A stretch of 14,975 bases of DNA from Candidatus Cloacimonadota bacterium (GTDB lineage Bacteria > Cloacimonadota > Cloacimonadia > JGIOTU-2). The notes beneath the pieces were generated by a model. That model saw nothing but the letters and a program-made list of their open reading frames with translations, was not told the origin of the DNA and made no database searches. The stretch covers positions 1 to 14,975 of the forward strand of contig JAGGUR010000018.1 in assembly GCA_021158425.1 (NCBI GenBank), given 5' to 3'. Every line of letters begins with the position of its first letter. The first letter of the stretch is position 1. Positions 1,169 to 14,975 of this stretch are shown here, piece by piece. Position numbers and translations under genes: made by a program.

Positions 1169-1214
1169 AAAATCTCAAAACGAATGACAAATCTCAAAAA
1201 AACAAATTTCAAAT

Positions 1215-1591: not shown

Positions 1592-1620
1592 TGATTTTTT
1601 CTTATTTTGTATGTTATTAT

Positions 1621-1629
1621 TTGTAATTT
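1621..1629. repeat. Right arm of cassette inverted repeat
   Basis: TTGTAATTT pairs with AAATTACAA at 1215-1223 and runs straight into TGAGATTT (1629-1636), the inverse of AAATCTCA on the left. From here to 1738 there is only AT-rich non-coding sequence, ending in a weak ribosome-binding site (AGGAT, 1726-1730) for the next gene. Confidence 0.4.
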
Positions 1630-1738
1630 GAGATTTATTTTTAATTTGGATTTTATAATTTGGATATTTAAAAATAAAAATGGCATCATGGACATACAAG
1701 AATCAACATAGGACCGATAAAAAATAGGATATTAGAAA

Positions 1739-3235
1739 ATGAATGAATTAGGTTTATTATCTAACGGGGTAAACCCTGTTCTTCTAATTGTTGTTCCTCT
1801 TGCACTTGCTTTTGCAGTGCCCTTAATAGGTTTTATTTCAAAAAAAATTATAAAATATATTCCGGTTCTTGCTTTCCTTTTTAATCTTATTATTGCAATA
1901 CTTTTAATACCTAAAGTTTTGCATCAACCAATAATTGTTAAAATTGGCGGTTTTCAGCCACCATTCGGTATCAACCTATATGTGGGAACCGTAGGTATTT
2001 TATTTTCTACTTTGATAGCTCTAGCAGGATTTTTGGTTTCCATCTACGCATTAAACTATATTAAAGAGGGTCCAAAAGAAAAATATCATATACTTTATCT
2101 TCTTCTTCTAACTGGAGCAACAGGTGTAGTTCTTACAGGTGATATATTCAATCTATTCGTCTTTTTTGAAATCCTTTGTATTTCGTCTTATGCTCTGGTA
2201 GCTTATTTTGGGAATAGGGCAGGAATTGAATCTTCAATAAAATATCTAATTCAAGGCTCGGTTGGGTCAAGTCTTCTTTTAATAGGAATTGGTCTACTTT
2301 ACGGACAATTTGGCACTCTTAATATGGCAGACATTGCTAATCAAATTCAATCAGCGAGTTCTCCCTCTATATTTGTTCCAATGGTGCTGATGATAACAGG
2401 TCTCGGAGTTGAAGCAGCCATATTCCCACTTAATGCCTGGCTGCCTGATGCACATTCCTCAGCACCTTCATCTATTAGTGCTATCCTTTCTGGAATTGCT
2501 ATTGAAGTGGGACTTTATGCTGTAATTCGTGTTCTGTTTACGATATTTGGCGCTTCAAACTTCTTGATGTTTTTTGTTTTCTTAGGCGTATTAACACTTC
2601 TAATCGGAGAAATGTCTGCATTCAGTCAGAAAAATATAAAAAGAATGTTGGCTTACTCCAGTATTGGTCAAATAGGCTTAATTGTTTTTGCCGTCTCACT
2701 TAATACACAATATGGCGTAAGTGCCGGACTTTTTCAGATGATAAGTCATACTCTCGGCAAAGGATTATTGTTTTTAGCAGCGGGTTATATGATTTATAGA
2801 ACGGCATCTATGGATATTTCTTCTTTTGAAGGTATAGGTAAAAAAATGCCTTATACATCATTGGCTTTTACAATCGGTACATTTTCACTTATAGGTTTAC
2901 CACCATTTATTGGATTCCCAAGTAAATTTATGATTATAAAAGCTGCTCTTGCCAAAGAGGGGATACTATTTACTGTTCTTGTCGGGCTTGTTCTTTTGGG
3001 AACTGTTATTGAAGGTGCTTATTTTTTCCGAGTTGTGCAGGTAATTTATTTTAAGAAAGGAAATGGGAATCAGGAAAGGAAAGAAGCTCCTATCACCGGT
3101 TTAATTCCAATGTTTATATTTGCACTCTTAATAATATTTATTGGAATTTATCCAAATTTTATAATCAAAATTTTGAATTCAGCGGCTTCAGAGCTTCTTA
3201 ATAAAATAGATTACATAAGGAGTGTTTTAGGATGA
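1739..3235 (+). CDS. mbxH: Antiporter-like proton/sodium-conducting subunit (MrpD/NuoN-like, MbxH-like)
   Basis: This 498-residue polytopic protein of the NuoL/M/N-MrpA/D family has about 14 helices and forms an ion-translocating unit of the membrane arm. Landmarks are LTGDIFNLFVFFEIL with the conserved TM5 glutamate E144, FPLNAWLPDAHSSAPS (229-244), a SHTLGK helix near 336-341, and GFPSK with K396 in the TM12 region. The lysines usual in TM7 and TM8 of the family appear as E225 (GLGVEAAIF) and E256 (SGIAIEVGLY). AGGAT at 1726-1730 lies 8 nt before the ATG and supports this start. The stop overlaps the next ATG by 4 nt. The family is certain. The H label comes from order and from the presence of a second such subunit next door, a trait of MBX-type complexes. 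Confidence 0.9.
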   Translation: MNELGLLSNGVNPVLLIVVPLALAFAVPLIGFISKKIIKYIPVLAFLFNLIIAILLIPKVLHQPIIVKIGGFQPPFGINLYVGTVGILFSTLIALAGFLVSIYALNYIKEGPKEKYHILYLLLLTGATGVVLTGDIFNLFVFFEILCISSYALVAYFGNRAGIESSIKYLIQGSVGSSLLLIGIGLLYGQFGTLNMADIANQIQSASSPSIFVPMVLMITGLGVEAAIFPLNAWLPDAHSSAPSSISAILSGIAIEVGLYAVIRVLFTIFGASNFLMFFVFLGVLTLLIGEMSAFSQKNIKRMLAYSSIGQIGLIVFAVSLNTQYGVSAGLFQMISHTLGKGLLFLAAGYMIYRTASMDISSFEGIGKKMPYTSLAFTIGTFSLIGLPPFIGFPSKFMIIKAALAKEGILFTVLVGLVLLGTVIEGAYFFRVVQVIYFKKGNGNQERKEAPITGLIPMFIFALLIIFIGIYPNFIIKILNSAASELLNKIDYIRSVLG

Positions 3236-5088
3236 GTTTGGAGTTATTGATAATAGTTGCTTTTGGTGGTGCATTTCTCACTTATTTTTTAGGCAAGATT
3301 TCATCTAAACTTAGGAATAGTTTTGCCGTACTCAATGCATTGGCGTTGGTCGTGATAATTGCTTGTTTATATGGTCAAACTATGGAGAAATCATTCTATT
3401 TTGGCTTCTTTAGTTTACCACTCATCCTGAGAAATAATGTGCTTTCCTGGTTTTTTGCCATTGCCATTTCTGTCTTAGGAGCTCTTTCGGTTATCTTTTC
3501 ATTAAGTTATATGAGGAACAGAGAAAGAACAGATTTCTACTATCTAATGATGCTTTTAGTCAATGCAGCAATGCTGGGTATTGTTTTTTCTGGTGATTTA
3601 ATTTCCTTTTTTATCTTTTGGGAAATTATGAGCTGGTCTACCTGTATATTAATCAGTTACAACAGAGGTCCAGCTTTAGCTGCTGGAATGAAATATATCA
3701 TTATGTCTATTATCGGTTCTATGGCAATGCTTGTGGGAATGTTATCTCTCTATACAACTTATGGAACGCTGAATATCGCAACACTTTCTACATTGGTTGC
3801 TTCTTCTTCTCATGGATATCTTTTATTTCTCTTGATTATTTTTGGAATTACTTTTGGCATTAAGAATGCTGTAATGCCCCTGCATACCTGGTTACCCGAT
3901 GCTTATGCAGAGGCGCCTTCGCCATTTACTGCTGTGCTTTCAGGCATGCTCACCCGAATGGGTATTTATGGCTTTCTTTTGATAATGTATGTAATAGTTG
4001 GAGCAGGAGCCACTCTTCATTTGGGTCATGGATTTTTTACTTTTAATAATATTCTTGCATGGTTAGGTGCGATTACAATAGTTATTCCAACATTTATTGC
4101 TATGCTTCAAAACGATGCAAAAAAACTTCTTGCCTGGCATGGAATTGGACAAGGCGGATATATGATTTTAGGAATTGCCTTTGGAACAAGCCTTGGTATG
4201 GCAGGAGGTATATTCCATACTCTTAATCATGCAATATATATATCTCTTCTTTTTATGAGCGTGGCAGCAATTCAGTATAGGACTGGGGGCGTGCGTGATT
4301 TAAATTCATTAGGTGGTTTAATTAAAAAAATGCCCATTGCCTTTATTGGTGGCCTATTGGGGATTTGTGGATTAATTGGTATACCATTAACAAATGGATT
4401 TGTCTCAAAATGGTTAATCTATAAAACGTTAATTTTAAATGGGGCTCCATTTTTAGCTTTTGCTGCATTGATTGGTACATGGGGGACTATCCTGTCTGTT
4501 TACAAGTTCTTGCACAATATATTTCTAGGACAGCTTCCGGAAAAATATAAAAATATACAAAAGTCGCCTTTTAGTATGCGATTACCCATTATTGTTTTAT
4601 CTTTTGCAATTCTTTTATTTGGTATTCTTCCTGGAATCCCTTTAAAAGTAATTAATGCTATTGACGTTTCTTTAGGTTTCAAATCCCTGAATGTCACATT
4701 GTGGGGAATTGCTTCAGATTCCGGCACATTAAATACTATAAACATTTTTGCTGTGGTTTTAGTTTTTGGTGTAATCATTTGGTTACTTTTTAAAGCAGGT
4801 AGAAAAGCTCCAAAAGTTGACCAATATGATAATTATGCAGCAGGTGCAGCAATTCCAAAGGGTAAATATCATTATACTGTTGATTACTATAACCCTTTTT
4901 ATAGGATGGCTACCCCATATTTAAAAGATTTTGTTGATGTATTTTACATGAAAATAGCAAAGTGGACTCAGAACCTTTGCAACACTGTGCGACGGATTTA
5001 TACAGGATATGTTGGTAATTATGTAATGTATATTGTGCTATTTATGGCATTTCTGATTTTAATACAATTAAAATGGAGTGTATTCTAA
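3232..5088 (+). CDS. Second antiporter-like subunit (NuoL/MrpD-like, MbxH'-like)
   Basis: This 618-residue membrane protein is a second NuoL/M/N-type ion-translocating subunit. It keeps the usual charged residues: E131 in FFIFWEIMSW (TM5), K211 in GIKNAVMPLHTWLPDA (TM7), R242 in MLTRMGIYG (TM8, normally Lys) and K393 in GFVSKW (TM12). The C-terminal third is longer than in MrpD, with extra helices near 500-520 and 600-615 separated by a hydrophilic stretch (about 523-580). That recalls the lateral extension of NuoL, although the long horizontal helix is not obvious here. It overlaps the previous gene as ATGA and the following NuoH-like gene as TAATG. Two adjacent antiporter subunits followed by M-J-K-L fit the MBX/MBS layout better than Mbh, which has one. 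Confidence 0.88.
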   Translation: MSLELLIIVAFGGAFLTYFLGKISSKLRNSFAVLNALALVVIIACLYGQTMEKSFYFGFFSLPLILRNNVLSWFFAIAISVLGALSVIFSLSYMRNRERTDFYYLMMLLVNAAMLGIVFSGDLISFFIFWEIMSWSTCILISYNRGPALAAGMKYIIMSIIGSMAMLVGMLSLYTTYGTLNIATLSTLVASSSHGYLLFLLIIFGITFGIKNAVMPLHTWLPDAYAEAPSPFTAVLSGMLTRMGIYGFLLIMYVIVGAGATLHLGHGFFTFNNILAWLGAITIVIPTFIAMLQNDAKKLLAWHGIGQGGYMILGIAFGTSLGMAGGIFHTLNHAIYISLLFMSVAAIQYRTGGVRDLNSLGGLIKKMPIAFIGGLLGICGLIGIPLTNGFVSKWLIYKTLILNGAPFLAFAALIGTWGTILSVYKFLHNIFLGQLPEKYKNIQKSPFSMRLPIIVLSFAILLFGILPGIPLKVINAIDVSLGFKSLNVTLWGIASDSGTLNTINIFAVVLVFGVIIWLLFKAGRKAPKVDQYDNYAAGAAIPKGKYHYTVDYYNPFYRMATPYLKDFVDVFYMKIAKWTQNLCNTVRRIYTGYVGNYVMYIVLFMAFLILIQLKWSVF

Positions 5089-6023
5089 TGCAAATTTGGG
5101 GAATTATTCTATCACCGCTTTTAGCTTTGGTTGTTGGGATATTTTTTCTAGGATTATCAAGAAAAATAATGGCAAGAATCCATTGGCGTTATGGGCCACC
5201 TATTACTCAACCCGTTATAGATATAATTAAGTTGTTCAGCCAGAAAAGTATAAGCCACGGAACAATATTCGATCTTGGATTAATTCTTTCATTAGCAGGG
5301 TCTTTTGTTGTTATTTTATTTCTTCCATTAGGACAAATGTGTCCATTAAGTTCCGGAGGTTTATTGGCAATATTGTATCTTATGCTATTAGCTCCTTTAG
5401 GTATAGCCTTAAGCAGTGGCGAAGCAGCTAATCCTAATTCCAGTATTGGAATATCAAGAAAATTTCTTCTTGCTCTTGGGTATGAGGTGCCCTTACTTTT
5501 TATCCTTCTTGCAGTTATGACGCATTATAATACTATTTCATTAGTGGAAATAGTAAGAATACAATCAACTACAGGATGGTCTTTTGGCTCTTTACCTTTG
5601 TTGTTATCAGGAATTGCTTACTTTCTGATACTTCCGGCTATATTAGGAATCAGACCTTTTGAAATTGCTGGTGCAGGTCAGGAAATTTCTTCAGGAGCAA
5701 ATGCCGAATTTGGGGGCAAATTTTTAGCTTTTTCTACTATACAACATGCTTTACACGAATTTATTGGTATTTCTCTTTTTGTAAATTTGTTTCTCGGAGG
5801 ATGGAGTCTGTTTGGAATTTTGGAACCCATCACAAATACAGTATGGGGTGTTATTCTGGGTATAATCGTCTTCTTAATAAAAATGCTAATAGTATTTATT
5901 TTAGGACTTTTTATAAATGCTGTGTTCCCTCGTTTTAGAATTGAGCAAGCGATTAAATATTTATGGAAATGGCCTACATTATTCGCCTTTATAGGGTTGA
6001 TAGTTGTAGTTTTGGTGAAATGA
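5088..6023 (+). CDS. mbxM: NuoH-like membrane anchor subunit (MbxM-like)
   Basis: This membrane subunit links the antiporter arm to the peripheral redox arm. I take the ATG at 5088, which overlaps the previous stop as TAATG and has GGAG 9 nt upstream, giving 311 residues; an in-frame ATG at 5073 would add five. There are about eight helices. The first cytoplasmic loop has SRKIMARIHWRYGPP (24-38), matching the ERK...RGP region of NuoH. The later conserved acidic loop reads RPFEIAGAGQEI (189-200), where NuoH and EchB proteins normally have PFD-PEAE-E, so two glutamates are glycine (G195, G197). The second NuoH-like protein at 13275 keeps both. The family is secure; M is assigned from order. Confidence 0.88.
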   Translation: MQIWGIILSPLLALVVGIFFLGLSRKIMARIHWRYGPPITQPVIDIIKLFSQKSISHGTIFDLGLILSLAGSFVVILFLPLGQMCPLSSGGLLAILYLMLLAPLGIALSSGEAANPNSSIGISRKFLLALGYEVPLLFILLAVMTHYNTISLVEIVRIQSTTGWSFGSLPLLLSGIAYFLILPAILGIRPFEIAGAGQEISSGANAEFGGKFLAFSTIQHALHEFIGISLFVNLFLGGWSLFGILEPITNTVWGVILGIIVFLIKMLIVFILGLFINAVFPRFRIEQAIKYLWKWPTLFAFIGLIVVVLVK

Positions 6024-6028
6024 TTGAA

Positions 6029-6057
6029 CAGCGAATGGGAGAATAATCTGTTCGCTG
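6029..6057. repeat. Short inverted repeat in the M/J gap
   Basis: CAGCGAA (6029-6035) and TTCGCTG (6051-6057) form a 7-bp perfect stem with a 15-nt loop in the 75-bp spacer after the NuoH-like gene. No T-run follows, so it is not a standard terminator. The rest of the spacer reads ACCGAACGGAGTGAGG just before the next ATG and supplies its ribosome-binding site. Confidence 0.4.
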
Positions 6058-6098
6058 GTTATTTGTAACTGTTTACTAACCGAACGGAGTGAGGTTTA

Positions 6099-6656
6099 AT
6101 GGATAGAAATCAACTTAAAAAATGGTTTGAATCTCCAGCAAAAATGGGGCATAAGTATTCCCTTCATGTTGTATATTTTTGTACTGGATGTGGAATTATT
6201 GAAATACCACCTTCAATAACAGCCAGGTGGGATGCTGAAAGATTCGGAGTAATTCCTGTGGCTACCCCAAGACAGGCAAACCTTTTCCTTATTACAGGAT
6301 ATGTTTCAGTAAAAACTTTAAAAGCAGTTATCCGCACATACGAACAGATGCCAGAGCCAAAATTTACTGTAGGTTTTGGCTCCTGCCCAATAAATGGTGG
6401 GATGTATTGGGATTCATATAATACAATAAAGCATTTGGATAAATATATTCCTATTGATGGATGGATCGCTGGTTGTATGCCAAGACCCGAAGCTATCTTT
6501 ATTGCCGTAACTCATCTTTGGACATTGATTGATAAAGAGATGGCAGACGGTTATAAAAAATACAAGGAAAACTATAGATATTACAGAGCAAATCAGGAAC
6601 AACTATATGGTAAATTAGACTGGCCACCATTATTTTCAGAGGAAGATAAGAAATGA
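6099..6656 (+). CDS. mbxJ: NuoB-like [4Fe-4S] subunit (MbxJ-like)
   Basis: This 185-residue peripheral-arm subunit is of the NuoB/small-hydrogenase type and carries the proximal [4Fe-4S] cluster. The four ligands are visible: C28 and C31 in YFCTGCGIIEIPP, C96 in GFGSCPINGG, and C126 in GCMPRPEA. The CTGCGIIEIPP form differs from the adjacent Cys-Cys of canonical NuoB and from the CNNCDIEIL motif of the second copy at 14211. The C-terminal tail (from about 150) is charged and longer than in EchC-type proteins. GAGTGAGG (6087-6094) ends 4 nt before the ATG. The stop overlaps the next gene by ATGA. It should receive electrons from the NuoI-like fusion and sit at the interface with the NuoD- and NuoH-like subunits. 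Confidence 0.9.
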   Translation: MDRNQLKKWFESPAKMGHKYSLHVVYFCTGCGIIEIPPSITARWDAERFGVIPVATPRQANLFLITGYVSVKTLKAVIRTYEQMPEPKFTVGFGSCPINGGMYWDSYNTIKHLDKYIPIDGWIAGCMPRPEAIFIAVTHLWTLIDKEMADGYKKYKENYRYYRANQEQLYGKLDWPPLFSEEDKK

Positions 6657-7165
6657 AATCACTTAAGAAAAAACTTGAATCCTCATTCAGCGACATTAAA
6701 ATAAATATTACTGACGATAGTAGAATAACTGTAAATATTAAAAAAGATGCAGTCGTTTCCATTTTAAATTTTCTTAAGAACCTGGGATATGAGCATTTGG
6801 CTCTAATATCCTGTATTGACTGGATAGAAGAGAATGAATTTGAACTTGTCTATATTCTTTCTGCCTATATGGAGAAAGACCAGGAATATAATGAGAAAGA
6901 AAAGAAAACTATTTTAGTCAAAACGAGGATTTCCAGAGAGGAATCAAAATTTATAACAGTGATAAATATTTTTGAAAATGCCGAGCCTTATGAACGGGAA
7001 TTACATGAACTTTTTGGGATAAATTTTGAGGGACATCCGCGATTGACGCCACTTTTCCTGGAAAGGGACTATAAAATACCTCCTTTCAGAAAAGATTTTG
7101 ATACAAGAAAATATGTAAAAGATGTCTTTGATAAAATTCCTTCCATTGAAGAAAGGAAGAAATGA
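6653..7165 (+). CDS. mbxK: NuoC-like subunit (MbxK-like)
   Basis: This 170-residue soluble subunit belongs to the NuoC/30-kDa family of the peripheral arm. The signature is near the C-terminus: ERELHELFGINFEGHPRL (114-131), then PPFRKDFD (143-150), matching the E-R-E-x-x-D-x-F-G-I...GHP...P-x-R-K-D pattern. It has no cofactor of its own and packs against the NuoD-like subunit. It overlaps the preceding gene by 4 nt. Its stop (7163-7165) overlaps the start of the GxxExxY gene by 4 nt, and an inverted repeat of that cassette begins right after the stop. The cassette therefore appears to have entered exactly at the end of this gene, separating it from its NuoD-like partner at 7763. Confidence 0.9.
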   Translation: MKSLKKKLESSFSDIKINITDDSRITVNIKKDAVVSILNFLKNLGYEHLALISCIDWIEENEFELVYILSAYMEKDQEYNEKEKKTILVKTRISREESKFITVINIFENAEPYERELHELFGINFEGHPRLTPLFLERDYKIPPFRKDFDTRKYVKDVFDKIPSIEERKK

Positions 7166-7605
7166 AAACCACTGAGAACACCCCGGTGGAAGGAAAAGAA
7201 AAGAATGATTCCACGGGGCAGGCTGAATACACAGAAGAGAAATATCCTCATTCTGAAATAACAAGCAGAATAATTAAATGTGCTATTGAGGTTCACAAGG
7301 TGTTAGGTCCAGGCTTTATGGAAAGTATATATGAAAAGGCTCTGATTTACGAGATGAGGCAAGACGGCTTAAAAGTTGATGCTCAGGTACTGGTTCCGAT
7401 AGTCTATAAAGGAAATAATGTAGGAGAGCATAGATTAGATTTACTCGTGGAAGATGCTGTAATAGTTGAGAATAAAACAGTAAAGGAGTTCAATGAAGTT
7501 CATCAAGCACAGGTTTTGTCTTATCTTAAAGCTACAGGTAAAAGGATTGGACTTTTGCTAAATTTTGCTAAAACGAAGTTAGAGATAAAAAGAATTATAT
7601 TGTGA
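7162..7605 (+). CDS. GxxExxY family protein (PD-(D/E)XK-like)
   Basis: The 147-residue product contains the name-giving motif as G51-FM-E54-SI-Y57 in GPGFMESIYEKALIYEM, preceded by ITSRIIKCAIEVHKVL. RLDLLVEDAVIVENKTVK (91-108) carries D93, E103 and K105, arranged like a PD-(D/E)XK nuclease core, and QAQVLSYLKATG (116-127) follows. GxxExxY proteins (TIGR04256) are widespread in environmental bacteria and their role is not settled; a nuclease-like fold is inferred. The first 30 or so residues (TTENTPVEGKEKNDSTGQ) are low-complexity and encoded by the flanking repeat, so the true start could be the in-frame GTG at 7186. The gene interrupts the K-L pair of a conserved complex and looks like a passenger. 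Confidence 0.85.
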   Translation: MKTTENTPVEGKEKNDSTGQAEYTEEKYPHSEITSRIIKCAIEVHKVLGPGFMESIYEKALIYEMRQDGLKVDAQVLVPIVYKGNNVGEHRLDLLVEDAVIVENKTVKEFNEVHQAQVLSYLKATGKRIGLLLNFAKTKLEIKRIIL

Positions 7606-7737
7606 TTTTTTTGGCTATATTAAAATGTAAACTAAATAGGTAAGTTTTTTATGAAAAGTTTTAATTTAAAATCTTACTTTTCAGTGTCTTCAGTGTCTTC
7701 AGTGGTTATAAAATTATCTTGTTTGGTTCAGTGGTTT
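7166..7737 (+). mobile_element. Probable GxxExxY cassette bounded by 10-bp inverted repeats
   Basis: AAACCACTGA at 7166-7175 is the exact reverse complement of TCAGTGGTTT at 7728-7737; a nine-base copy of the right arm also ends the tandem array at 7699-7707. The roughly 570-bp interval holds the GxxExxY gene, an internal stem (CCCC-GTGGAA near 7181-7191 with TTCCACGGGG at 7209-7218), an AT-rich imperfect stem (7640-7677) and tandem 9-mers. It starts at the stop of the NuoC-like gene and ends just before the NuoD-like gene. No transposase is present. If it moves, it does so with help supplied elsewhere. Confidence 0.45.
7681..7707. repeat. Tandem 9-bp repeats, TCAGTGTCT type
   Basis: Three 9-mers stand in a row: TCAGTGTCT (7681-7689), TCAGTGTCT (7690-7698) and TCAGTGGTT (7699-7707). 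The last is inverted relative to AACCACTGA at 7167-7175. A related array of TCTGTGTTC units lies at 8972-9009, upstream of the NuoI-NfnB fusion gene. Confidence 0.75.
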
Positions 7738-7762
7738 AAATTACAGATAAGGATGAGAAAAA

Positions 7763-8863
7763 ATGAGAGAACTTGAACTCTATTTTGGTCCACAGCATCT
7801 TGGAATGGTTGGTAATTTCAGCATCACTCTAAAAGTAGAAGGTGACCGTATTTTAAAAGCTGATGCAAACCCCGGATATTTACATCGCGGTTTTGAAAAA
7901 CTTATAGAACAAAGAACCTGGATGCAAAACTTCCCTTTAGTGTGTAGAATAAATGTCGTGGAACCTGACCACATGGAATTAATATACTCTATGGGAGTTG
8001 AAAAATTAGCTGGAATTGAAGTACCGGAAAGAGGAAAATTTATAAGAAGCATCTATTGTGAACTTGCTCGAGTAGGTTCTCATTTATTCGGATTATGGGC
8101 TTATTCTAATATGCTCGGTTTTGATACAGTTGCAAATTGGGCAATGTATCATCGCGATCTTGTATTGGACCTTTTTGAAGAACTTACCGGGGCAAGGGTC
8201 TATCATATTTATATTCGCCCCGGTGGAGTAAGACGTGATTTCCCTGAAGGTTTTGAAGATAAAATTGTTAAAACGCTACATACTATTGGTAGTAAAGTGC
8301 CGGATTATAATGCTACATTTTTTGAAAATCGTCTCTTCGAAAAAAGAGCCAAAAATATTGGCAAAATAACCTGTGAAGAAGCTAAAAAAATGGGTGCAGT
8401 AGGACAGGCTATAAGAGCAACTGGGATGAAGTATGATATCAGAAAGATTGAGCCTTACGCTGCTTATGATAAAGTAGACTGGAAAGTTCCTACAAGAGAA
8501 GATGGTGACGCTTATTCACGGATTCTGGTAATTCGTGATGAGATGATTGAAAGCGTTTATATGATATTTAAATTGCTTGATAAAATGCCGAAAAAAGGTG
8601 ATGTCTATACTAAAACTCCCAATCCATTCAAGTGGAGAGTACCAGCAGGAGAAGCTTATGTGAGATGTGAATCTTCACGAGGAGAGTTAGGACTTTATAT
8701 AGTAAGTGATGGTGGAGATAAGCCGTATCGGGCACATTTTAGAACTCCTTCTTACTCTCACGGACTGACAATTTTAGAAAAAGTTCTGGAGGGTGAAAGT
8801 ATCGCTGATGTCGGCAATATTATGATGAGCTTATATGTAGTGGCTCCGGAAATAGACCGATAA
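7763..8863 (+). CDS. mbxL: NuoD-like large subunit lacking NiFe ligands (MbxL-like)
   Basis: This 366-residue protein is the large-subunit homologue of NuoD and group 4 NiFe hydrogenases. The N-terminus has GPQHLGMVG (9-17), like GPQHPATHG of NuoD, and PAGEAYVRCESSRGELG (294-310) is a strong family signature. Hydrogenases bind NiFe through two CxxC motifs. The first region reads LVCRINVVEPDHMEL (59-73) with no CxxC, and the C-terminus reads SLYVVAPEIDR with no cysteine. The only cysteines are C61, C99, C204 and C302. Hydrogenase activity through a NiFe site is therefore not expected. The CRI..VEPD form recalls MBX/MBS large subunits. AAGGA at 7749-7753 precedes the ATG by 9 nt. What replaces the active site (sulfur, quinone, or only electron relay to the fused flavoprotein) cannot be read from sequence. 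Confidence 0.88.
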   Translation: MRELELYFGPQHLGMVGNFSITLKVEGDRILKADANPGYLHRGFEKLIEQRTWMQNFPLVCRINVVEPDHMELIYSMGVEKLAGIEVPERGKFIRSIYCELARVGSHLFGLWAYSNMLGFDTVANWAMYHRDLVLDLFEELTGARVYHIYIRPGGVRRDFPEGFEDKIVKTLHTIGSKVPDYNATFFENRLFEKRAKNIGKITCEEAKKMGAVGQAIRATGMKYDIRKIEPYAAYDKVDWKVPTREDGDAYSRILVIRDEMIESVYMIFKLLDKMPKKGDVYTKTPNPFKWRVPAGEAYVRCESSRGELGLYIVSDGGDKPYRAHFRTPSYSHGLTILEKVLEGESIADVGNIMMSLYVVAPEIDR

Positions 8864-8932
8864 ATTAAGTATGGGATAAAATATGAAACATACATGTTCC
8901 GGAAACAAATCGGGACGCAATGGAGAATGAAT

Positions 8933-8946
8933 CCGCCAGCTGGCGG
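8933..8946. repeat. 14-bp perfect palindrome
   Basis: CCGCCAGCTGGCGG is self-complementary and much more GC-rich than its surroundings. It lies in the 154-bp gap between the large-subunit gene and the fusion gene. No T-run follows, so it is not a typical terminator. It looks like a dispersed short palindromic element. Confidence 0.7.
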
Positions 8947-8971
8947 GACGAGCCAGAGTTATCAGATTTTT

Positions 8972-9009
8972 TCTGTGTTCTCTGTGTTCTCTGTGTCTCT
9001 GCGGTGAGG
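8972..9009. repeat. Tandem 9-bp repeats, TCTGTGTTC type, ending in a ribosome-binding site
   Basis: Units are TCTGTGTTC (8972-8980), TCTGTGTTC (8981-8989) and TCTGTGTCT (8990-8998), followed by CTGCGGTGAGG. The terminal GGTGAGGA (9003-9010) is the only good ribosome-binding site for the ATG at 9018, 7 nt downstream. The unit length and the GTG core match the array at 7681-7707. Confidence 0.75.
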
Positions 9010-9017
9010 ATTTTCAG

Positions 9018-10955
9018 ATGAGTAAAACAAGTTTTTTAAATCCGTTTAAAGCTATAAAATATCTTTTTGAAAAACCAAAAACTCTAAGGTATCCTTTTGA
9101 GCTTAAAGAACCAGCAAAAAGATATAGAGGATTTCATCTCAATGATTGGGATAAATGTACCGGCTGTGGAAATTGTGCTGATATCTGTCCTAATGAAGCC
9201 ATTGAAATGATAAAAATACCAGAGATTGAAGCAAACCTGGCTGAAGGCAGAAAAAATGAACGTCCACAAATAGATTATGGCAGATGCTGTTTCTGCGGCT
9301 TATGTGTTGATATTTGTCCTCCCGGTTCTTTAACTCTTACCAGAGATTATTTACATATACATTTTGATACGAATACCTTTAAATTTATTCCAAAAGACGA
9401 GAAACTGGATAAGGCAACTTTTGTGCCTACGGAGGAATATTCAGTATTAAAAGCCAGTTTATCGCATAGAAAACAAGATTATCAGGGCTTTTCACCTGAA
9501 CTTGAGTATGCACTTTTTGAACCTGAAAGGGTTAAGATGCCTCAGATTCCTCCAGAAAAGAGAAAACTTTCATTCATTGAACAAGTAATCGGTTATAATA
9601 AAGATGAAGCAAAACAAGAAGCTGGACGTTGCCTTGAGTGTAAACTTTGCGAAGATGCATGTCCAGCGCATCTTAAAATATCAGAATATATTGATGCGAT
9701 TTACAGAGATAAACCTAAGGAATCACTTGAAAAAATATATGAAGACAATCCAATTCCTTCCATCTGCGGAAGAATATGTATGAAACATTGCGAAGATGCC
9801 TGCTCTTTACGAATAAGAGGAGATGCTCTTGCTATAAGATGGCTCAAACGTTATGCTGCTGACCAGATTAAAAATTTTAAAGAAGAACTTGAGATACATC
9901 CAGGTAAACCCACAGGGAAAAAAATTGGTATCATTGGCGCCGGTCCAAGTGGATTATCATTGGCATATTTTCTGCGACTTCAAGGGCATAAAGCAATCGT
10001 TTATGATGAATTATCCGGTGGCGGCGGAGCCATCAGAATAGGTCCACCAAAGTATAGACTTCCTCTTGAAGCAATTGATAAAGATGTTAATTATATAGAA
10101 TCTCTGGGAGTTGAGTTTAAGTTTAATACTAAAGTAGGAAGAGATATAAAATTTGAAGAAATGTTAAATGATAATGATGCTGTTTTTATTGGGATAGGAA
10201 ACACAGTAAGTTTTTCCACAAGAGTAAAAAATTCTGAAAAATGTATACTTGCTCTTGACTTTCTGAAAGATAATAAGATAGGAAAGCAAAGAAAAGTAGG
10301 AAAAGAAGTTATAGTCATTGGTGGTGGAAATGTGGCAATGGATGTTGCAAGAGAAACAATAAGGCTTCAGCATATACAATATCCAGGTGAAAAAGTAATC
10401 ACCAAAACAGTTTCATTAGAAGATTGGGACGAATTACCAGCCACAGAGGAAGAAGTAGAAGAAGCAAAAGAAGAAGATGTACAATTTAATCCTGCTTGGG
10501 GACCAAAAGAAGTTGTACTTGATGATAGTGGAAATATAAAAGGTCTTTTATGTAGAAAAGTGAAATCAGTATTTAACGAACAGGGAAGATTTTCTCCTAC
10601 TTTTTATGAAGATAAAACGAAATTTCTTACAGGAGATATGATAATTGAGGCTATTGGGCAAAGAGCGGATTTCTCATTTCTTCCCGATGAACTTTCTGAT
10701 AAACTCGAATTTACTGAAAGAAGAAAAGTTAAAGTTGATGAAAACGGTATGACTTCAATTCCAAAAGTATTTGCGGGCGGTGATATAGTTAATATAAATT
10801 TGGATGCAGTTACAGCAATTGCAGATGCAAAAGTTGCCGCACAAGGTATTGATAAATTTTTAAAAAGGCAACAACAAATAATATCAAAAGATGTTATCGG
10901 GCCAAAATCATTAGAAAGCAAAAAATATAACGGGAAAGAGTCGGTTGACGATTAA
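9018..10955 (+). CDS. NuoI-like ferredoxin fused to GltD/NfnB-type NAD(P)-flavoprotein (MbxN fusion)
   Basis: This 645-residue protein has two parts. Residues 40-115 are a NuoI/MbxN-like domain with two [4Fe-4S] motifs: C47-C50-C53-C57 and C90-C93-C96-C100 (GRCCFCGLCVDICPPGSL). Residues 185-615 resemble the GltD/NfnB flavoprotein: two further cysteine quartets (C205-C208-C211-C215 and C250-C254-C258-C262), an FAD site GIIGAGPSG (304-312), a nucleotide site VIVIGGGNVAMDVA (431-444) and FAGGD at 586-590. The likely role is to pass electrons between NAD(P)H or NAD(P)+ and the NuoB-like subunit while the membrane arm moves ions. The basic YRR motif expected after the second nucleotide site is replaced by TVSLEDWDELPA (464-475), so cofactor preference is open. 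The last 27 or so residues extend beyond the usual end, and the stop lies in a repeat. A GltD-like gene next to an mbx cluster is recalled for Thermotoga. Confidence 0.88.
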   Translation: MSKTSFLNPFKAIKYLFEKPKTLRYPFELKEPAKRYRGFHLNDWDKCTGCGNCADICPNEAIEMIKIPEIEANLAEGRKNERPQIDYGRCCFCGLCVDICPPGSLTLTRDYLHIHFDTNTFKFIPKDEKLDKATFVPTEEYSVLKASLSHRKQDYQGFSPELEYALFEPERVKMPQIPPEKRKLSFIEQVIGYNKDEAKQEAGRCLECKLCEDACPAHLKISEYIDAIYRDKPKESLEKIYEDNPIPSICGRICMKHCEDACSLRIRGDALAIRWLKRYAADQIKNFKEELEIHPGKPTGKKIGIIGAGPSGLSLAYFLRLQGHKAIVYDELSGGGGAIRIGPPKYRLPLEAIDKDVNYIESLGVEFKFNTKVGRDIKFEEMLNDNDAVFIGIGNTVSFSTRVKNSEKCILALDFLKDNKIGKQRKVGKEVIVIGGGNVAMDVARETIRLQHIQYPGEKVITKTVSLEDWDELPATEEEVEEAKEEDVQFNPAWGPKEVVLDDSGNIKGLLCRKVKSVFNEQGRFSPTFYEDKTKFLTGDMIIEAIGQRADFSFLPDELSDKLEFTERRKVKVDENGMTSIPKVFAGGDIVNINLDAVTAIADAKVAAQGIDKFLKRQQQIISKDVIGPKSLESKKYNGKESVDD

Positions 10956-10988
10956 CGAATGACGATTCGAGCGTCGCAACCTCAACCG
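10942..10988. repeat. Inverted and direct repeats over the fusion-gene stop
   Basis: CGGTTGA (10942-10948) and TCAACCG (10982-10988) are exact inverse copies. Between them GACGATT occurs twice, at 10947-10953 and 10961-10967, 14 bp apart. The stop codon of the fusion gene (10953-10955) lies inside the first copy, so the last residues (SVDD) are encoded by the repeat. Confidence 0.5.
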
Positions 10989-11019
10989 TATGACGAAAAA
11001 AGAAGGAAAAGATACTTAA

Positions 11020-11577
11020 ATGAGAAAACTTTTAATTGATGTAACAAAATTGATAAAAGAGAAGGATGCACTGGATAGAATAGATTGCGAATATTTATAT
11101 CACGAAGGAACCAATAGAGGGATTTTTTCTTTACTTGAGATTGCCGAATTTGGGGTTTTCTGCCGTCAATGTAAAGAAGCATTTTGCGTTGATGCCTGTC
11201 CAAAGGAAGCACTAGAACGAACAGAAACAAATCTAATAAAAAGATATAATATGCGATGTGTGGGTTGCAAAAGTTGTATTTTAGCTTGCCCTTTCGGGAC
11301 AATCTTTCCTGAAGTGATAAATTATATTACATCAAAATGTGATTATTGCCTAAATCAGTTGGATGAAGACCCAAACTATGTTCCACTTTGCGTAAAAACT
11401 GCTGGTAATGATGCTGTAAAAATCATTGATATTGATAAGGAAAAACCAGAAGAAAATCTATTTTTTGTTGGTGACCATATGGTTGTAAAAACTCCGAGTT
11501 GGAGAGAAAAAGAGAAAAAAGAAGATATGATAAACCCGGGTTACCCGAGACCCACGAAAAAAGGTGTAGGACCATGA
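11020..11577 (+). CDS. HycB/CooF-type polyferredoxin, electron-transfer subunit
   Basis: This 185-residue iron-sulfur protein has cysteine groups of the HycB/CooF/DmsB type. They are C48-C51-C56-C60 (CRQCKEAFCVDACP), C80-C83-C86-C90 (CVGCKSCILACPFG), and a third with C107-C110 and C124. The fourth ligand of that third set, normally Cys in C-V-x-x-C-P, is alanine (LCVKTAG), although C23 near the N-terminus is unpaired. At least two [4Fe-4S] clusters are expected. It likely feeds electrons to the upstream or downstream complex. AAGGAAAAG upstream is the ribosome-binding site. The C-terminal 40 residues are charged. The stop overlaps the kinase start by 4 nt, tying expression of the two together. 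Which complex it serves is not decided by the sequence. Confidence 0.85.
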   Translation: MRKLLIDVTKLIKEKDALDRIDCEYLYHEGTNRGIFSLLEIAEFGVFCRQCKEAFCVDACPKEALERTETNLIKRYNMRCVGCKSCILACPFGTIFPEVINYITSKCDYCLNQLDEDPNYVPLCVKTAGNDAVKIIDIDKEKPEENLFFVGDHMVVKTPSWREKEKKEDMINPGYPRPTKKGVGP

Positions 11578-12452
11578 AAGAGAAAGAAAAGGATTTAGCG
11601 AGCACTATTAATATAAGAGAAGTGTGCGCTGAATGCGAAAGATTGAATCGCCATCTGAAATGGGTGGTCAGTTTCGTAAGTCACGAACTCAGCAGTTCCT
11701 TGGGAACGGTCGTTATGAACATAAGTGCCCTCGTAGATACAGAGGTTGCGAAAAGACTTGATAAAGACAAGCAACAAAGAATGATGTTGGGAGCGCTCAG
11801 CAGCCTGAACCTCATGCAGGATATGGTCAGAAACTACCTCGCCTCTACAAAGGTCAAGGATGGGCAACTTAGCTTCAATCCTACTAAGATAAACCTTGAT
11901 AAAGATATTATCAGTAAAATTGTCAAACGCTTAATGCCTGCTCTGAAGATGAAAAGCATGGAATTCATCTGCGAGCATTGCAGAGACCTTGAAGTAGTAT
12001 GCGACAAATCACTCATACACATTGCAATAAAAAACCTAATCAACAATGCGATAAAATACGGCAGTATAAATACAACTATTCGCTCATCACTAAGAAAATG
12101 GCACAAGGGCTTCGAATTTACTATAACGAACGAGGGAATCGGCATTCCTGAGGATAAGCTCGAGGCTGTCTTTGATGAATTCGCACGATTTGACCCGATT
12201 GGCATTGGTGGAACTGGTCTCGGTCTATATCTGGTCAGAAAAATAGCCACCATGCACAACGGAAATATTAAAGCAAACGCTGGATACATCCTCAATGATA
12301 AGTTCATAACCTACGAAATGGCCAGAAAAAACCCAGACCAATATACTGTAGATCTAAATGAGGAGAGAATTAGAAAATTTGCTACTTTCGTCCTGCGTAT
12401 CCCTGGTTGGACGCCGGCTAAAAGTGGTTTAAAAGCAAAGAAGGAAGACTAA
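11574..12452 (+). CDS. Soluble sensor histidine kinase with CxxC pairs
   Basis: I start at the ATG at 11574, which overlaps the ferredoxin stop as ATGA and gives 292 residues. An upstream in-frame ATG at 11499 would lie deep in the ferredoxin gene and add a low-quality basic stretch. The HisKA-like helix has FVSHELSSSL with H37 as phospho-acceptor. The ATPase domain shows an N-box (KNLINNAIKYG, 153-163), a G1 box (NEGIGIPEDKLEAVFDEF, 186-203) and a G2 box (GIGGTGLGLYLVRKI, 210-224). There are no transmembrane segments and no PAS or GAF domain. The region before H37 is short and has C18-AE-C21, with a second pair C133-EH-C136. A redox or metal signal read by these cysteines is possible but inferred. 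Codon use looks more GC-rich than in neighbouring genes, hinting at separate ancestry. Partner: the regulator 3 nt downstream. Confidence 0.9.
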   Translation: MKEKEKDLASTINIREVCAECERLNRHLKWVVSFVSHELSSSLGTVVMNISALVDTEVAKRLDKDKQQRMMLGALSSLNLMQDMVRNYLASTKVKDGQLSFNPTKINLDKDIISKIVKRLMPALKMKSMEFICEHCRDLEVVCDKSLIHIAIKNLINNAIKYGSINTTIRSSLRKWHKGFEFTITNEGIGIPEDKLEAVFDEFARFDPIGIGGTGLGLYLVRKIATMHNGNIKANAGYILNDKFITYEMARKNPDQYTVDLNEERIRKFATFVLRIPGWTPAKSGLKAKKED

Positions 12453-12455
12453 AAT

Positions 12456-12869
12456 ATGGAGAAAATAAAAATGTCTAAACATAAGTCCATTCTGTTTGTG
12501 GATGATGACCCGAGCTTTCTGGAAGCAACGACAAATGTGCTTGAAAGTTTCGGTTATAGTGTAATAAAGGCATTAAATCCCAAGAAGTGCTTTGAAACGT
12601 TAGATAAAGAGTTGCCAGATCTTATTATCCTTGATGTAATGATGGCACGGATAGATTCTGGATTTGATGTTTGTAGAAAATTGAAAACCGATAATAGAAC
12701 TAAGGGAATCCCAATTCTGATGCTTACAGCAGTTGACAAGGAATACCCATTTGACTTTGGTAAGACTGCCGGAGATCCCGATTGGTTGCCTGTTGAGGAT
12801 TTTATAGACAAACCAGTTGAGGCTATGGAATTAGTGGAACATATTCGTGTGCTCCTGAAAGAAAAGTAA
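12456..12869 (+). CDS. Single-domain response regulator (receiver only)
   Basis: This 137-residue CheY-like receiver has no output domain. The acidic pair is D16-D17 (FVDDDPS), the phospho-acceptor is D60 (LIILDVMMARIDSGF), the switch Thr is T91 (MLTAV) and the conserved Lys is K119 (DFIDKP). Between T91 and K119 it has a longer loop than CheY (KEYPFDFGKTAGDPDWLPV), a variant I associate with regulators in anaerobic hydrogenase and oxidoreductase clusters. AAGGAAG (12441-12447) lies 8 nt before the ATG at 12456; a second in-frame ATG at 12471 also has a GGAG upstream. With no DNA-binding part, it must act through protein contacts, either on another regulator or on the enzyme complexes themselves. 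It directly follows the kinase. Confidence 0.9.
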   Translation: MEKIKMSKHKSILFVDDDPSFLEATTNVLESFGYSVIKALNPKKCFETLDKELPDLIILDVMMARIDSGFDVCRKLKTDNRTKGIPILMLTAVDKEYPFDFGKTAGDPDWLPVEDFIDKPVEAMELVEHIRVLLKEK

Positions 12870-13193
12870 CTCTGATGTGCTGGATGATTGCAATGTATAG
12901 AGAGACAATAAAGGTGGAAATCATATTTGTTTTAGTTTTTCAAACATTGTTAAACCGGTATAATTATTTGTATCTTGGGACATATGAACAGGAGTTTACT
13001 AATTCTCGGCTTGTAAATAGTATTATTGAAGATGAGCATTGTTATATAAATAATCCAGGAAATTATGAATAAAATTGAATATATAATAGTTATCAGTTTA
13101 CTTCAACAACAGATGGAGTTTATTCCAATATTAATTTTTGTAATCAAAATAATCAAGAATATTTTTTCTATTATAAATTTTTATTTCTGCATC

Positions 13194-13213
13194 CCTGCCC
13201 ACTGTCAGGCAGG
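13194..13213. repeat. GC-rich hairpin CCTGCC/GGCAGG
   Basis: CCTGCC (13194-13199) and GGCAGG (13208-13213) form a 6-bp GC stem with an 8-nt loop. Next to it, CTGCT (13215-13219) and AGCAG (13233-13237) can form a second stem. Both stand out in otherwise AT-rich sequence. No T-run follows. Confidence 0.45.
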
Positions 13214-13263
13214 TCTGCTGATCCCCGCAGGTAGCAGGAAAACTTTACTACACGGAGTAAACA

Positions 13264-13270
13264 TAGGAGG
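13264..13270 (+). promoter_or_regulatory. Strong ribosome-binding site deciding a GTG start
   Basis: TAGGAGG lies 4 nt before a GTG at 13275. It is the best Shine-Dalgarno sequence in this part of the window and supports the non-ATG start of the second NuoH-like gene, since no in-frame ATG lies close by. Confidence 0.7.
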
Positions 13271-13274
13271 ATAA

Positions 13275-14207
13275 GTGATTTTTAAATATCTATTCTACTT
13301 GCTCATTTTCCCAGGCTTCTTGTTTGCATCAATTTTTGGAATGATTGTTGGCTGGGTAGATAGAAAAGTTAGTGCAAGAGTGCAGTTCCGTGTTGGACCT
13401 CCATTTTTTCAAAACTTCCTGGATGTTTTTAAATTATGGGGCAAGGAAGTCATTCTGGTAAAAAATTCGCCTTATTTTATTTTTATTGCCGCTCCAATCA
13501 TTGCATTCGCTTCAGTATTGATTACATCTACATTGGTTGGCACTGCTGGCTTTTTGCATCTCGGAATAGGTGGAGACTTAATATTCATAATCTATCTTAT
13601 GGTTATTTATTCGGTAGCCTTGATATTAGGTGCGTCATCAACTGGAAATATCTATTCAAGTATTGGTGCTGGCAGAGAGATGAAACTTCTGCTTGCGGAT
13701 GAATTAGCTTTTATCCTTGTAATATTAGTGCCAATAATAAAAAGTGGATATAAGATAAATTTGATAGATATTCTAAATTTCCAACACGCAAATGGAATGA
13801 TAATCGGTTCTGCGTCTGGAATTATTGCTTTTATTGTCGGCATAATCTGTCTTCAGGCAAAGATGGCAATGCAGCCTTTTGATATTCCTGAAGCGGAAAC
13901 CGAAATTGTTGGCGGACCCTTGATGGAATATTCTGGTCCCTTGCTGGCATTCTGGCAATTAGCTCATTTTATGATGTATGTATTTCTGCCTTTGCTTTTG
14001 GTCATCCTATTCTGGGGAGGAATTAGTTTCTCATCCGTTGGCAGTATTATTGCTGGAATTCTAAAATATTTGCTGATAGTAGTTCTTATGATTTTGATGA
14101 AAAATACTAATCCCCGTCTCAGAACAGATACAGCAATAGGTTTCTTCTGGAAAATTGCCAGTCCTCTGGCTTTAGTTGCCGTAATCCTGGCTATATTAGG
14201 AGTATAA
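13275..14207 (+). CDS. NuoH/EchB-like membrane anchor of a second complex
   Basis: This 310-residue membrane protein with about eight helices starts at GTG 13275 behind TAGGAGG. It has DRKVSARVQFRVGPP (29-43) in the first loop and QPFDIPEAETEIVGGP (200-215), the fully conserved acidic loop of NuoH/EchB/HycD proteins with E206 and E208 present. In this it differs clearly from the MbxM-like protein at 5088, where those two glutamates are glycine. It anchors the NuoB- and NuoC-like subunits encoded directly downstream (3-nt gap to the next gene). No antiporter-like subunit gene lies next to it on the left, as echA does in Ech operons. The arm may be encoded downstream or be shared. Confidence 0.88.
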   Translation: MIFKYLFYLLIFPGFLFASIFGMIVGWVDRKVSARVQFRVGPPFFQNFLDVFKLWGKEVILVKNSPYFIFIAAPIIAFASVLITSTLVGTAGFLHLGIGGDLIFIIYLMVIYSVALILGASSTGNIYSSIGAGREMKLLLADELAFILVILVPIIKSGYKINLIDILNFQHANGMIIGSASGIIAFIVGIICLQAKMAMQPFDIPEAETEIVGGPLMEYSGPLLAFWQLAHFMMYVFLPLLLVILFWGGISFSSVGSIIAGILKYLLIVVLMILMKNTNPRLRTDTAIGFFWKIASPLALVAVILAILGV

Positions 14208-14210
14208 ATT

Positions 14211-14630
14211 ATGGCATTATATAATAAGATTTTGAAAAAGTCTATATGGGTTTTTCATGCAAGCGCCAGCCCGTGTAATAATTGTGATATTGAAATTCTT
14301 GATTTGCTGACCCCAGGATATGATATTGAAAGATTTGGAATGAAACTTGTTGGCTCAGTTCGGCATGCAGATGTATTATTAGTAACTGGAATTGTTTCAC
14401 ATAAAGTAGCACCAAGAATAAAGCAATTATATGAACAGGCAGCAAAACCGATTTTTGTCGTTGGAATTGGAAGTTGTACCACTGGAGGCACGACTTTTAA
14501 GCAGAGCTATAACAGAGCAGGTGCACCTCTGGATAAGATTATTCCTGTTAATGCCTATGTGCCAGGATGTCCACCCAAACCTGAGGCAATGATTGATGGT
14601 ATAGTAAAATTATTAGGGACTTTGAAATGA
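14211..14630 (+). CDS. NuoB/EchC-like [4Fe-4S] small subunit of a second complex
   Basis: This 139-residue small subunit has all four cluster ligands: C22 and C25 in ASPCNNCDIEILDLL, C89 in GIGSCTTGG, and C120 in GCPPKPEA. CNNCDIEIL is the form found in group 4 hydrogenases (Ech, Mbh, Hyc types) rather than in NuoB of complex I, and the short length also fits EchC. Together with the preceding NuoH-like and following NuoC-like genes it gives the order B-C-D of ech operons. It differs from the MbxJ-like protein at 6099 in motif and tail, so these are separate paralogous complexes. The stop overlaps the next ATG by 4 nt. A hydrogenase call needs the large subunit, which lies outside the window. 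Confidence 0.88.
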   Translation: MALYNKILKKSIWVFHASASPCNNCDIEILDLLTPGYDIERFGMKLVGSVRHADVLLVTGIVSHKVAPRIKQLYEQAAKPIFVVGIGSCTTGGTTFKQSYNRAGAPLDKIIPVNAYVPGCPPKPEAMIDGIVKLLGTLK

Positions 14631-14975
14631 CTGAAAAAGAAAAACTTTTTTTTGAAAAATATAAAGACAAAATATCTAAAATCATTACAAAGAAAAAGAG
14701 ATATTATTTCAATATCAAAAACGAGGATTTGAGAGAAATTGCTGATTATCTTTTCAATACAATGAAATGTCGGCTTTCTATCTGCACTGCTACGGAAGCT
14801 TATGATGGTCTGGAAGTTTTGTATCACTTTTCAGATGATACAACTGGAACTTATTATAATCCTCGTGTGCATATTGCTGACCTTGAAAATCCTGAAGTCT
14901 ATTCTATAACCCCGATTATTGAAGGTGCAAATTGGATTGAGCGCGAGATGTATGACCTCTTCGGAATAAAATTCA
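14627..14975 (+). CDS. NuoC/EchD-like subunit, 5' part
   Basis: An ATG at 14627 overlaps the preceding stop (ATGA) and opens a frame that runs off the window after 116 codons. The product begins with a Lys/Glu-rich helix, continues with an alpha/beta segment, and ends in WIEREMYDLFGIKF, the NuoC-family motif (ERE..D.FGI). It is the second NuoC-like protein in the window and differs from the one at 6653 over most of its length. In some group 4 enzymes this domain is fused to the large subunit, as in HycE. Whether it is fused here cannot be seen because the sequence stops just after the motif. Confidence 0.85.
   Translation, partial: MTEKEKLFFEKYKDKISKIITKKKRYYFNIKNEDLREIADYLFNTMKCRLSICTATEAYDGLEVLYHFSDDTTGTYYNPRVHIADLENPEVYSITPIIEGANWIEREMYDLFGIKF

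Follow-up and report, generated by a model that had tools for sequence, protein, structure and literature searches.

A fused NAD(P)H module with a predicted use of NADH in the MBX/MBS-type complex of a Candidatus Cloacimonadota bacterium

Introduction

The locus described here raises the question of which carrier feeds electrons to an ion-pumping complex of the MBX/MBS type when the subunit in the position of MbxN is fused to a flavoprotein of the GltD/NfnB type, and with which substrate these electrons are exchanged at the other end. The fusion protein is encoded at positions 9018–10955 (+) of a contig from a Candidatus Cloacimonadota bacterium (GenBank assembly GCA_021158425.1, contig JAGGUR010000018.1, positions 1 to 14,975), the source genome being 0.95 Mb in size and 62% complete; the whole stretch of 14,975 nucleotides is referred to below as the window. 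Judged from the sequence comparisons, the encoded complex is of the MBX/MBS type and carries an NAD(P)H module as part of a fusion protein, NADH being the predicted substrate in the window. With slightly better than even confidence, the complex is read here as an NADH:sulfane-sulfur oxidoreductase coupled to ion pumping, the fusion being its electron-input subunit. This reading starts from the fusion itself, the cysteines of its clusters, the operon, the pairing with MbxL in the sample, the MBS-type cluster motif and the loss of both the NiFe pairs and the quinone ligands; from these we infer the NAD(H) preference, the electron path, the sulfur partner, the ion coupling and the direction. Should NADH indeed be the input, the energy balance would be altered for many anaerobes and sulfur oxidisers, and the complex would represent a further design within the complex I superfamily, i.e. 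one pump with another fuel inlet and another terminal substrate.

The fusion protein and its cofactor sites

The 645 amino acid residues are encoded from an ATG start in a single uninterrupted open reading frame with the following parts:

9018..9392 (+): NuoI/MbsN-like domain, residues 1-125, with two [4Fe-4S] sites, C47/50/53/57 and C90/93/96/100
9570..9875 (+): Fer4_20 domain, residues 185-286, with cysteines C205/208/211/215 and C250/254/258/262; NfnB Glu117 corresponds to Lys277
9921..10955 (+): GltD/NfnB-type flavin adenine dinucleotide (FAD) and NAD(P) domains, residues 302-645 (Pfam Pyr_redox_2 at 302-602)
10413..10421 (+): Ser466-Leu467-Glu468, replacing NfnB Tyr310-Arg311-Arg312 (2'-phosphate site); predicts NAD(H)

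Pfam recognises a 4Fe-4S dicluster at residues ~43-103. The best NuoI-type match in the PDB is 6u8y_N from the MBS of P. furiosus (1.3e-32), and the GltD domain has its best profile match in 4ylf_B (NfnB). In an alignment of 99 full-length copies—some being one gene from two collections, with 96 distinct over the last 560 residues—all 16 cluster-ligand cysteines are invariant, as are the glycines G307 and G309 of the FAD motif and G435 and G437 of the second nucleotide site, the third glycine of the FAD motif, G312, being found in 97 copies. An AlphaFold2 model of the whole fusion, built with 69 sequences as input, reached a mean pLDDT of 90.7 and a pTM of 0.86. The domain matches and the invariant residues confirm what an earlier note on this DNA had claimed, namely that four [4Fe-4S] cysteine quartets, an FAD site and a second nucleotide site are united in one protein. 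The same note had considered that two genes might have been merged by a frameshift; such an error, whether of sequencing or of assembly, is ruled out, because intact copies at 90, 81 and 75% identity occupy the equivalent operon position in other genomes.

The nucleotide-binding site

The triplet corresponding to NfnB Y310-R311-R312 occurs in two states and no third one, YRR being present in 21 of the 99 copies and S/A/C-L/M-E/Q in the remaining 78, with SLE in the window. Among the DsrL proteins, NADP(H) was the substrate of the assayed enzyme with YRR, and those with triplets from a set that includes S-L-E, although none with A or C in the first position, used or preferred NAD(H) (PMC7596348). 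From the SLE triplet and these DsrL and NfnB data, the fusion of the window is therefore predicted to use NAD(H). DsrL-1 and DsrL-2 are likewise GltD-type NAD(P)H:acceptor oxidoreductases that divide into YRR (NADP) and non-YRR (NAD) forms, but DsrL works with DsrAB, has its additional ferredoxin domain C-terminally and is not accompanied by an ion pump. The two-state motif, which predicts NADH for the window, and the lysine found in all 99 copies in place of a glutamate of NfnB (see below) appear to be the new elements of the present comparison; the former yields a clear prediction that is testable on a single expressed protein.

With regard to the evolution of the motif, a full-length tree calculated by a quick method without the motif columns requires 2 state changes, compared with 18.5 in shuffles. 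In a tree of the GltD domain only, also without the motif columns and rooted with 14 other GltD-type sequences (13 with YRR and one with YDR), the NAD-type fusions, of which 30 were sampled, group in a single clade (98/98), the NADP-type ones being positioned outside. The NADP-type site is thus probably the ancestral one, with one or two switches to the NAD-type. In the full-length tree, all 22 rows from proteobacteria (17 labelled Pseudomonadota and 5 recorded as tubeworm or clam symbionts) are of the NAD-type, and most of them, judged by name, are presumably sulfur oxidisers.

The fusion shares with the NfnB of T. maritima (4ylf_B) and the NfnL of P. furiosus (5jca_L) the GltD-type FAD/NAD(P) module and two [4Fe-4S] clusters. 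It differs from NfnB in that YRR is replaced by SLE and Glu117 by lysine, and in that no NfnA-like gene is named among the scanned genes of the window, the rest of the genome not having been searched for NfnA. The proximal cluster of NfnB is bound by Cys51, Cys90, Cys96 and Glu117 (PMC7596348); the equivalent of Glu117 is a lysine (Lys277) in 99 of 99 copies, and the invariant Cys250 aligns with a cysteine of NfnB outside this set of ligands. A bifurcating role of the NfnB type is considered unlikely for the fusion because of this lysine, the other missing hallmark being, in the window, the YRR motif. In one relative (L040), a 458-residue GltD-like gene and a 280-residue gene adjoin the operon.

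The operon and its conservation

The fusion is preceded on the window contig by genes of the MnhB-, MnhC-, NuoL/M/N- (two), NuoH-, NuoB-, NuoC- and NuoD-like types, and no separate NuoI gene is found among them:

126-809 (+): MnhB-type Mrp subunit
809-1168 (+): MnhC-type Mrp subunit
1739-3235 (+): MbxH, antiporter-like
3232-5088 (+): MbxH', antiporter-like
5073..6023 (+): MbxM, NuoH-like
6099..6656 (+): MbxJ, NuoB-like, with the MBS-type proximal-cluster motif FCTGCG, GSC, AGC; best PDB match 6u8y_J, 4.6e-66
6653..7165 (+): MbxK, NuoC-like
7763..8863 (+): MbxL, NuoD-like, lacking both NiFe CxxC pairs and with two valines in place of the His and Tyr that are the quinone ligands in complex I; best PDB match 6u8y_L, 3.3e-103
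11020..11577 (+): multi-[4Fe-4S] ferredoxin-like protein (HydN/DmsB type), located between two complexes

Mrp subunits are thus found in one operon with H, H', M, J, K, L and N, which is the assemblage that characterises MBX/MBS. The contig begins at MnhB, so that the start of the operon lies outside it; Pfam identifies MnhE in two other genomes (G014 and G033) and MnhF in G014. As far as the contigs reach, the order MnhB-MnhC-MbxH-MbxH'-M-J-K-L-fusion is seen in 19 loci of relatives (17 genomes), MbxH and MbxH' being either separate or fused and M uncalled in L050 and L051. Both this order and the domain matches support the earlier claim that the fusion fills the position of MbxN in an MBX-type complex and adds to it a GltD/NfnB-type NAD(P)H module.

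The association with MbxL was followed in two collections, i.e. in 59 genomes (that of the window and 58 relatives) and in the 80 best of at least 382 confirmed relatives from a contig scan, the latter referred to as named loci. In the named loci, MbxL lies upstream of the fusion in 76 of 80, at a distance of 200 bases or less in 68 of these 76; small genes are inserted between the two in L078, L112, L118 and L129, and in L065 the Mrp genes are found downstream of the fusion. The four loci without an upstream MbxL are L070 (contig end), L079, L097 and L119, an MbxL-type gene being present elsewhere in all four genomes. In the 59 genomes, the MbxL profile gave 20 places at 431 bits or more, which match by contig the 20 places of the fusion, so that neither is found without the other; a separate class of 20 places at 242–276 bits includes two that were read (G005 and G014), and both carry the NiFe pairs. 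The adjacency to MbxL that the earlier note had put up for checking is therefore well borne out. Its opposite, a company of glutamate synthase genes (GltB), is rejected for the 59 genomes: the domain PF01645 (E<=1e-10), searched for in these genomes and not in the 80 named loci, is present in three of them and never on a contig with the fusion, the only one of the 18 fusion-bearing genomes that has it (G035) carrying it on contig C7 and the fusion on C36.

The pump core

Among solved structures, the NuoD-like subunit is closest to chain L and the NuoB-like one to chain J of 6u8y, the MBS of P. furiosus (formerly MBX), complex I being a distant second. In MbsJ, only C28, C93 and C123 bind the proximal cluster, C25 being dispensable; this cluster, with one iron open, reduces polysulfide, and MbsN takes up the electrons of ferredoxin (PMC7684303). 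By motif comparison, C31, C96 and C126 of MbxJ correspond to the three ligands of MbsJ, and the short loop is retained. The equivalent of C25 among 96 distinct operons is glycine in 44, cysteine in 36 and unread in 16, a variability that is expected because this residue is not a ligand. Regarding the large subunit, neither NiFe pair is present in 96 of 98 matches (four of them fragments), the other two, with both pairs, coming from a second complex; a single N-terminal CRxC is retained in 34 of the 98. The equivalents of the quinone ligands H38 and Y87 of complex I are both valine in the window MbxL, as judged from the alignment, and the window MbxJ has CTGC instead of the tandem CC of the NuoB of complex I.

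The complex of the window thus resembles the P. furiosus MBS in its J, L and N relatives, in the Mrp-type membrane arm with H and H', in the three-cysteine cluster motif and in the lack of NiFe pairs and quinone ligands. The main difference concerns the input, since MbsN is fed by ferredoxin and has no GltD domain, whereas the fusion adds ~450 GltD-type residues; moreover, MbsL retains two cysteines that the window MbxL has lost. Complex I has homologous NuoB/C/D/H/I and antiporter subunits and the input of NADH in common with it, but its NuoEFG module is unrelated to the GltD module, and the window complex is devoid of the quinone ligands and possesses the Mrp-type membrane arm.

Proposed function and alternative readings

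According to the mechanism proposed here, NADH would dock on the GltD-type domain and reduce its FAD, from which single electrons would pass through the two Fer4_20 clusters and then the two NuoI-type clusters to the lone cluster of MbxJ. The latter, with the MBS motif that would leave one iron without a cysteine ligand, would most likely trade electrons with sulfane sulfur (polysulfide or persulfide), and the redox step at MbxJ/MbxL/MbxM would drive the movement of H+ or Na+ through MbxH, MbxH' and the Mrp subunits. Such a complex would be an analogue of complex I, with the GltD module standing for NuoEFG and sulfur for quinone. The potential gap from NADH to polysulfide is small, nearly level, and the complex should therefore work near equilibrium in a direction that may vary with the host, possibly reversed in sulfur oxidisers. 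The fact that the fusion is shared together with the same pump across many bacteria suggests a respiratory complex in which a probable sulfur reaction and the pumping of ions are tied to NADH and not to ferredoxin.

Several points weigh against this proposal. The transfer of electrons from NADH to polysulfide yields little energy, which is a poor fit to a strong forward pump, and some hosts, such as Thiothrix and Tropicimonas, presumably contain quinones. No biochemistry was found for this complex, the sulfur partner being taken from homology. The donor of MBS is ferredoxin, and nothing in the data implies that ferredoxin docking has been lost in the fusion. The two cysteines of MbsL missing from the window MbxL are missing from complex I, too, and the full-length and GltD-only trees are in conflict on a single origin of the NAD-type motif. 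A gene of the CoA-disulfide-reductase family speaks weakly in favour of the proposal, since two of the three genomes whose fusions are closest carry it at the operon, G014 with the gene flanked by mnhE and mnhF and G033 with the gene upstream of mnhE; it is seen, however, in just 2 of 100 loci, many of them with a short upstream flank, both members of the pair score below the NCBIfam cut-offs, and a general neighbourhood of sulfur genes around the operon was accordingly not found. Of the 18 genomes with MBX, 12 contain the ~450-residue form of this family (>=220 bits), as do 4 of the 41 without MBX, a difference that is confounded by kinship and not relied on. Finally, a common Hyf-like cluster related to Mbx has been held not to serve sulfur reduction (PMC4053972), so that kinship with MBX alone is no proof of a sulfur role.

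Concerning other readings, the first is the one advanced in the earlier note, in which the complex is a ferredoxin:NAD(P)+ oxidoreductase that pumps ions, comparable to Rnf, an NAD-linked ion-pumping complex of anaerobes: ferredoxin would reduce the NuoI clusters and the GltD domain would reduce NAD(P)+. It is in line with the proposal of such a role, with NADP+ as acceptor, for the P. furiosus Mbx (PMC2678158, PMC3035292, PMC6349859), with the entry of ferredoxin electrons at MbsN (PMC7684303), and with rnfC having been found neither in the incomplete genome of the window nor in G005 (92% complete). It would, however, place the ferredoxin and NAD(P) sites on one peripheral subunit, so that the MbxJ/MbxL coupling site of MBS and complex I can be bypassed, and would leave the conserved MBS-type motif of MbxJ without a role; rnfC is, in addition, present in 16 of the 18 complex-bearing genomes. 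On these grounds the Rnf-like role did not find support and is regarded as unlikely. A replacement of Rnf by this complex is equally unsupported by the co-occurrence of the two; in the window, no Rnf family or subunit is named among the matches listed for the scanned genes. Still less probable is a confurcating or bifurcating enzyme with two donors, in which NAD(P)H and ferredoxin would converge on the fusion and supply the sulfur site together, or the electrons of NAD(P)H would be divided between ferredoxin and sulfur. The FAD of NfnB does bifurcate, and the two halves of the fusion are homologous to NfnB (4ylf_B as the best profile match) and to the ferredoxin-accepting MbsN; the lysine at the position of the Glu117 ligand in every copy, with the invariant Cys250 close by, and the lack of an NfnA-like gene among those named in the window speak against it.

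An NADH:quinone oxidoreductase with a GltD input module may be suggested by the NCBIfam models of NuoD and NuoB, both matching above cut-off, and by quinones being expected in the gammaproteobacterial and Bacteroidota hosts. It is nevertheless a very improbable solution, and quinone is an unlikely acceptor, because the headgroup ligands are replaced by valines in the window (the window MbxJ also having no tandem CC) and neither menD nor mqnE, the sole quinone markers sought, was detected at E<=1e-40 in any of the 59 genomes; among 14 control genomes, menD matched in 7 and mqnE exceeded its cut-off in 2. The least credible of the readings considered, with hardly any weight given to it, makes the fusion an input module for an adjacent Mbh-type hydrogenase, NADH electrons leaving via the ferredoxin-like protein (11020-11577) for the formation of H2. 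Downstream of the fusion, G000, G005 and G014 do carry a ferredoxin-like gene together with genes for a hydrogenase of the group 4 type, but the arrangement was seen in those three genomes only, the fusion being accompanied elsewhere by MbxL, and the second complex of G014 has a NuoI-type gene of its own.

The NADH:sulfane-sulfur reading may be extended to a widespread class, a kind of 'sulfur complex I' with NADH entering via GltD, sulfane sulfur in the place of quinone and reversible coupling to H+ or Na+. Its members would oxidise NADH with polysulfide in bacteria that ferment or reduce and would run in reverse in sulfur-oxidising proteobacteria and animal symbionts, making NADH from sulfide at the expense of the ion gradient, the switch from the NADP- to the NAD-type site having occurred once or twice. 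This extension is offered as a possibility that we ourselves regard as rather doubtful.

Family, distribution and earlier literature

The fusion matches the NCBIfam family NF010590 (PRK13984, 'putative oxidoreductase') with residues 1-619 over positions 6-610 of the 611 in the profile (4e-211). Its score of 702 bits is below the curated cut-off of 946, and in a control scan the family was matched in 14 of 14 control genomes and above the cut-off in one, possibly that of T. maritima. The domain order NuoI-GltD is alike over nearly the full length, and the fusion is therewith a member of an already catalogued family, although one without an assigned function. In the 59 genomes, the 20 places of the fusion are distributed over 18 genomes, 19 of them extending to query residue 616 or beyond and one (G033) ending at the contig edge. 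The named relatives cover Spirochaetota, Bacteroidota, Chlorobiota, Pseudomonadota, Halanaerobiales, Neomarinimicrobiota, Omnitrophota, WOR-3, Bipolaricaulota and others. In the GltD tree, all 40 sampled fused domains are located on one side of a branch, with the 14 other GltD-type sequences—a small outgroup, almost all from the class of the window—on the other (100/99); since the fused domains separate together, the tree is consistent with one fusion event. A near copy of the end of a window-type operon, at 75% identity, is found on a 4.2 kb contig (L056) binned as a Thermoplasmata archaeon, which may reflect lateral transfer or mis-binning.

A connection between MBX and flavoproteins of this kind has been discussed previously. 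For the dehydrogenase-linked MBX operon of Thermosphaera, an NADPH link via a SudA/GltD-like gene was proposed in 2010 (PMC3035292), and the mbh/mbx cluster of Staphylothermus was discussed as lying near the SudA-like flavoprotein Smar_1055 (PMC2678158). Both thus exhibit an MBX-type operon with a GltD-like flavoprotein and a proposed NADPH or NAD(P)H link, but the flavoproteins are described there as separate genes and not as NuoI fusions. The MBX of T. maritima was depicted as ferredoxin-driven (PMC9431562), and the ferredoxin:NADP role of the P. furiosus Mbx was repeated later (PMC6349859). A 'putative Mrp-Mbx complex' of the Riftia symbiont is listed with its in vivo function as unknown (PMC11636981); to judge from the loci of related tubeworm symbionts (L109, L114 and L125), it is probably of the fusion-bearing kind. 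The earlier suggestion that the fusion may be less described thus stands for the fused NuoI-GltD form, of which no account was found in searches of open-licence papers, but not for the family, catalogued as NF010590, nor for the idea of a GltD-like partner, raised for Thermosphaera.

Neighbouring genes

The ferredoxin-like protein encoded at 11020-11577 belongs, by inference, to a second complex that follows the fusion in G000, G005 and G014 (window 13275-14974; L035:14477-18293; L143:954-16047). It comprises the ferredoxin-like gene, NuoH/B/C-like genes and a large subunit that lies off the contig in G000 and has both CxxC pairs of group 4 [NiFe] hydrogenases—not found in MbxL—in G005 and G014; in G014, Mbh and Mrp subunits, a separate NuoI for this complex, HypF, HypD and a HypE-like gene are present as well. 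This second complex has the appearance of a hydrogenase of the Mbh type that is arranged in tandem with MBX. The interval between the two complexes of the window (11499-12869) contains genes that were assigned by eye to a histidine kinase and a response regulator; similar genes occupy this place in G005 but not in G014. Upstream of the MBX operon, G005 and G014 possess a Fer4_22 dicluster protein (L145:127-1146 and L144:8435-9454).

Inside the operon of the window, a gene of the 23S-rRNA-intervening-sequence type (1223-1591) and a GxxExxY nuclease-like gene (7162-7605) are inserted, comparable insertions being found at several positions in L035, L061, L078, L089, L112, L118 and L129. In one member of the Omnitrophota (L079:9962-11776), the fusion is situated away from MBX, beside a formate-tetrahydrofolate ligase. 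A rubrerythrin/ferritin-like gene, detected with an iterated profile, is located shortly after the fusion or in its C-terminal extension (L065, L068 and L070) in 35 of 99 loci, examples being L097:11795-12295, L039:8475-8924 and L068:9989-12232; the Pfam family Rubrerythrin matches 20 of 76 downstream proteins and none of the Spirochaete extensions, so that the fused rubrerythrin form is unsure. In 10 of 99 loci, these 10 being from Bacteroidota and Chlorobiota, a gene resembling that of dihydroorotate dehydrogenase begins no more than ~450 bases after the fusion, the one at L087:11794-12768 being named NF005741, and a small CBS-domain protein is encoded 250 bases or less downstream of the fusion in 14 of 99 loci (e.g. 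L036:11901-12284).

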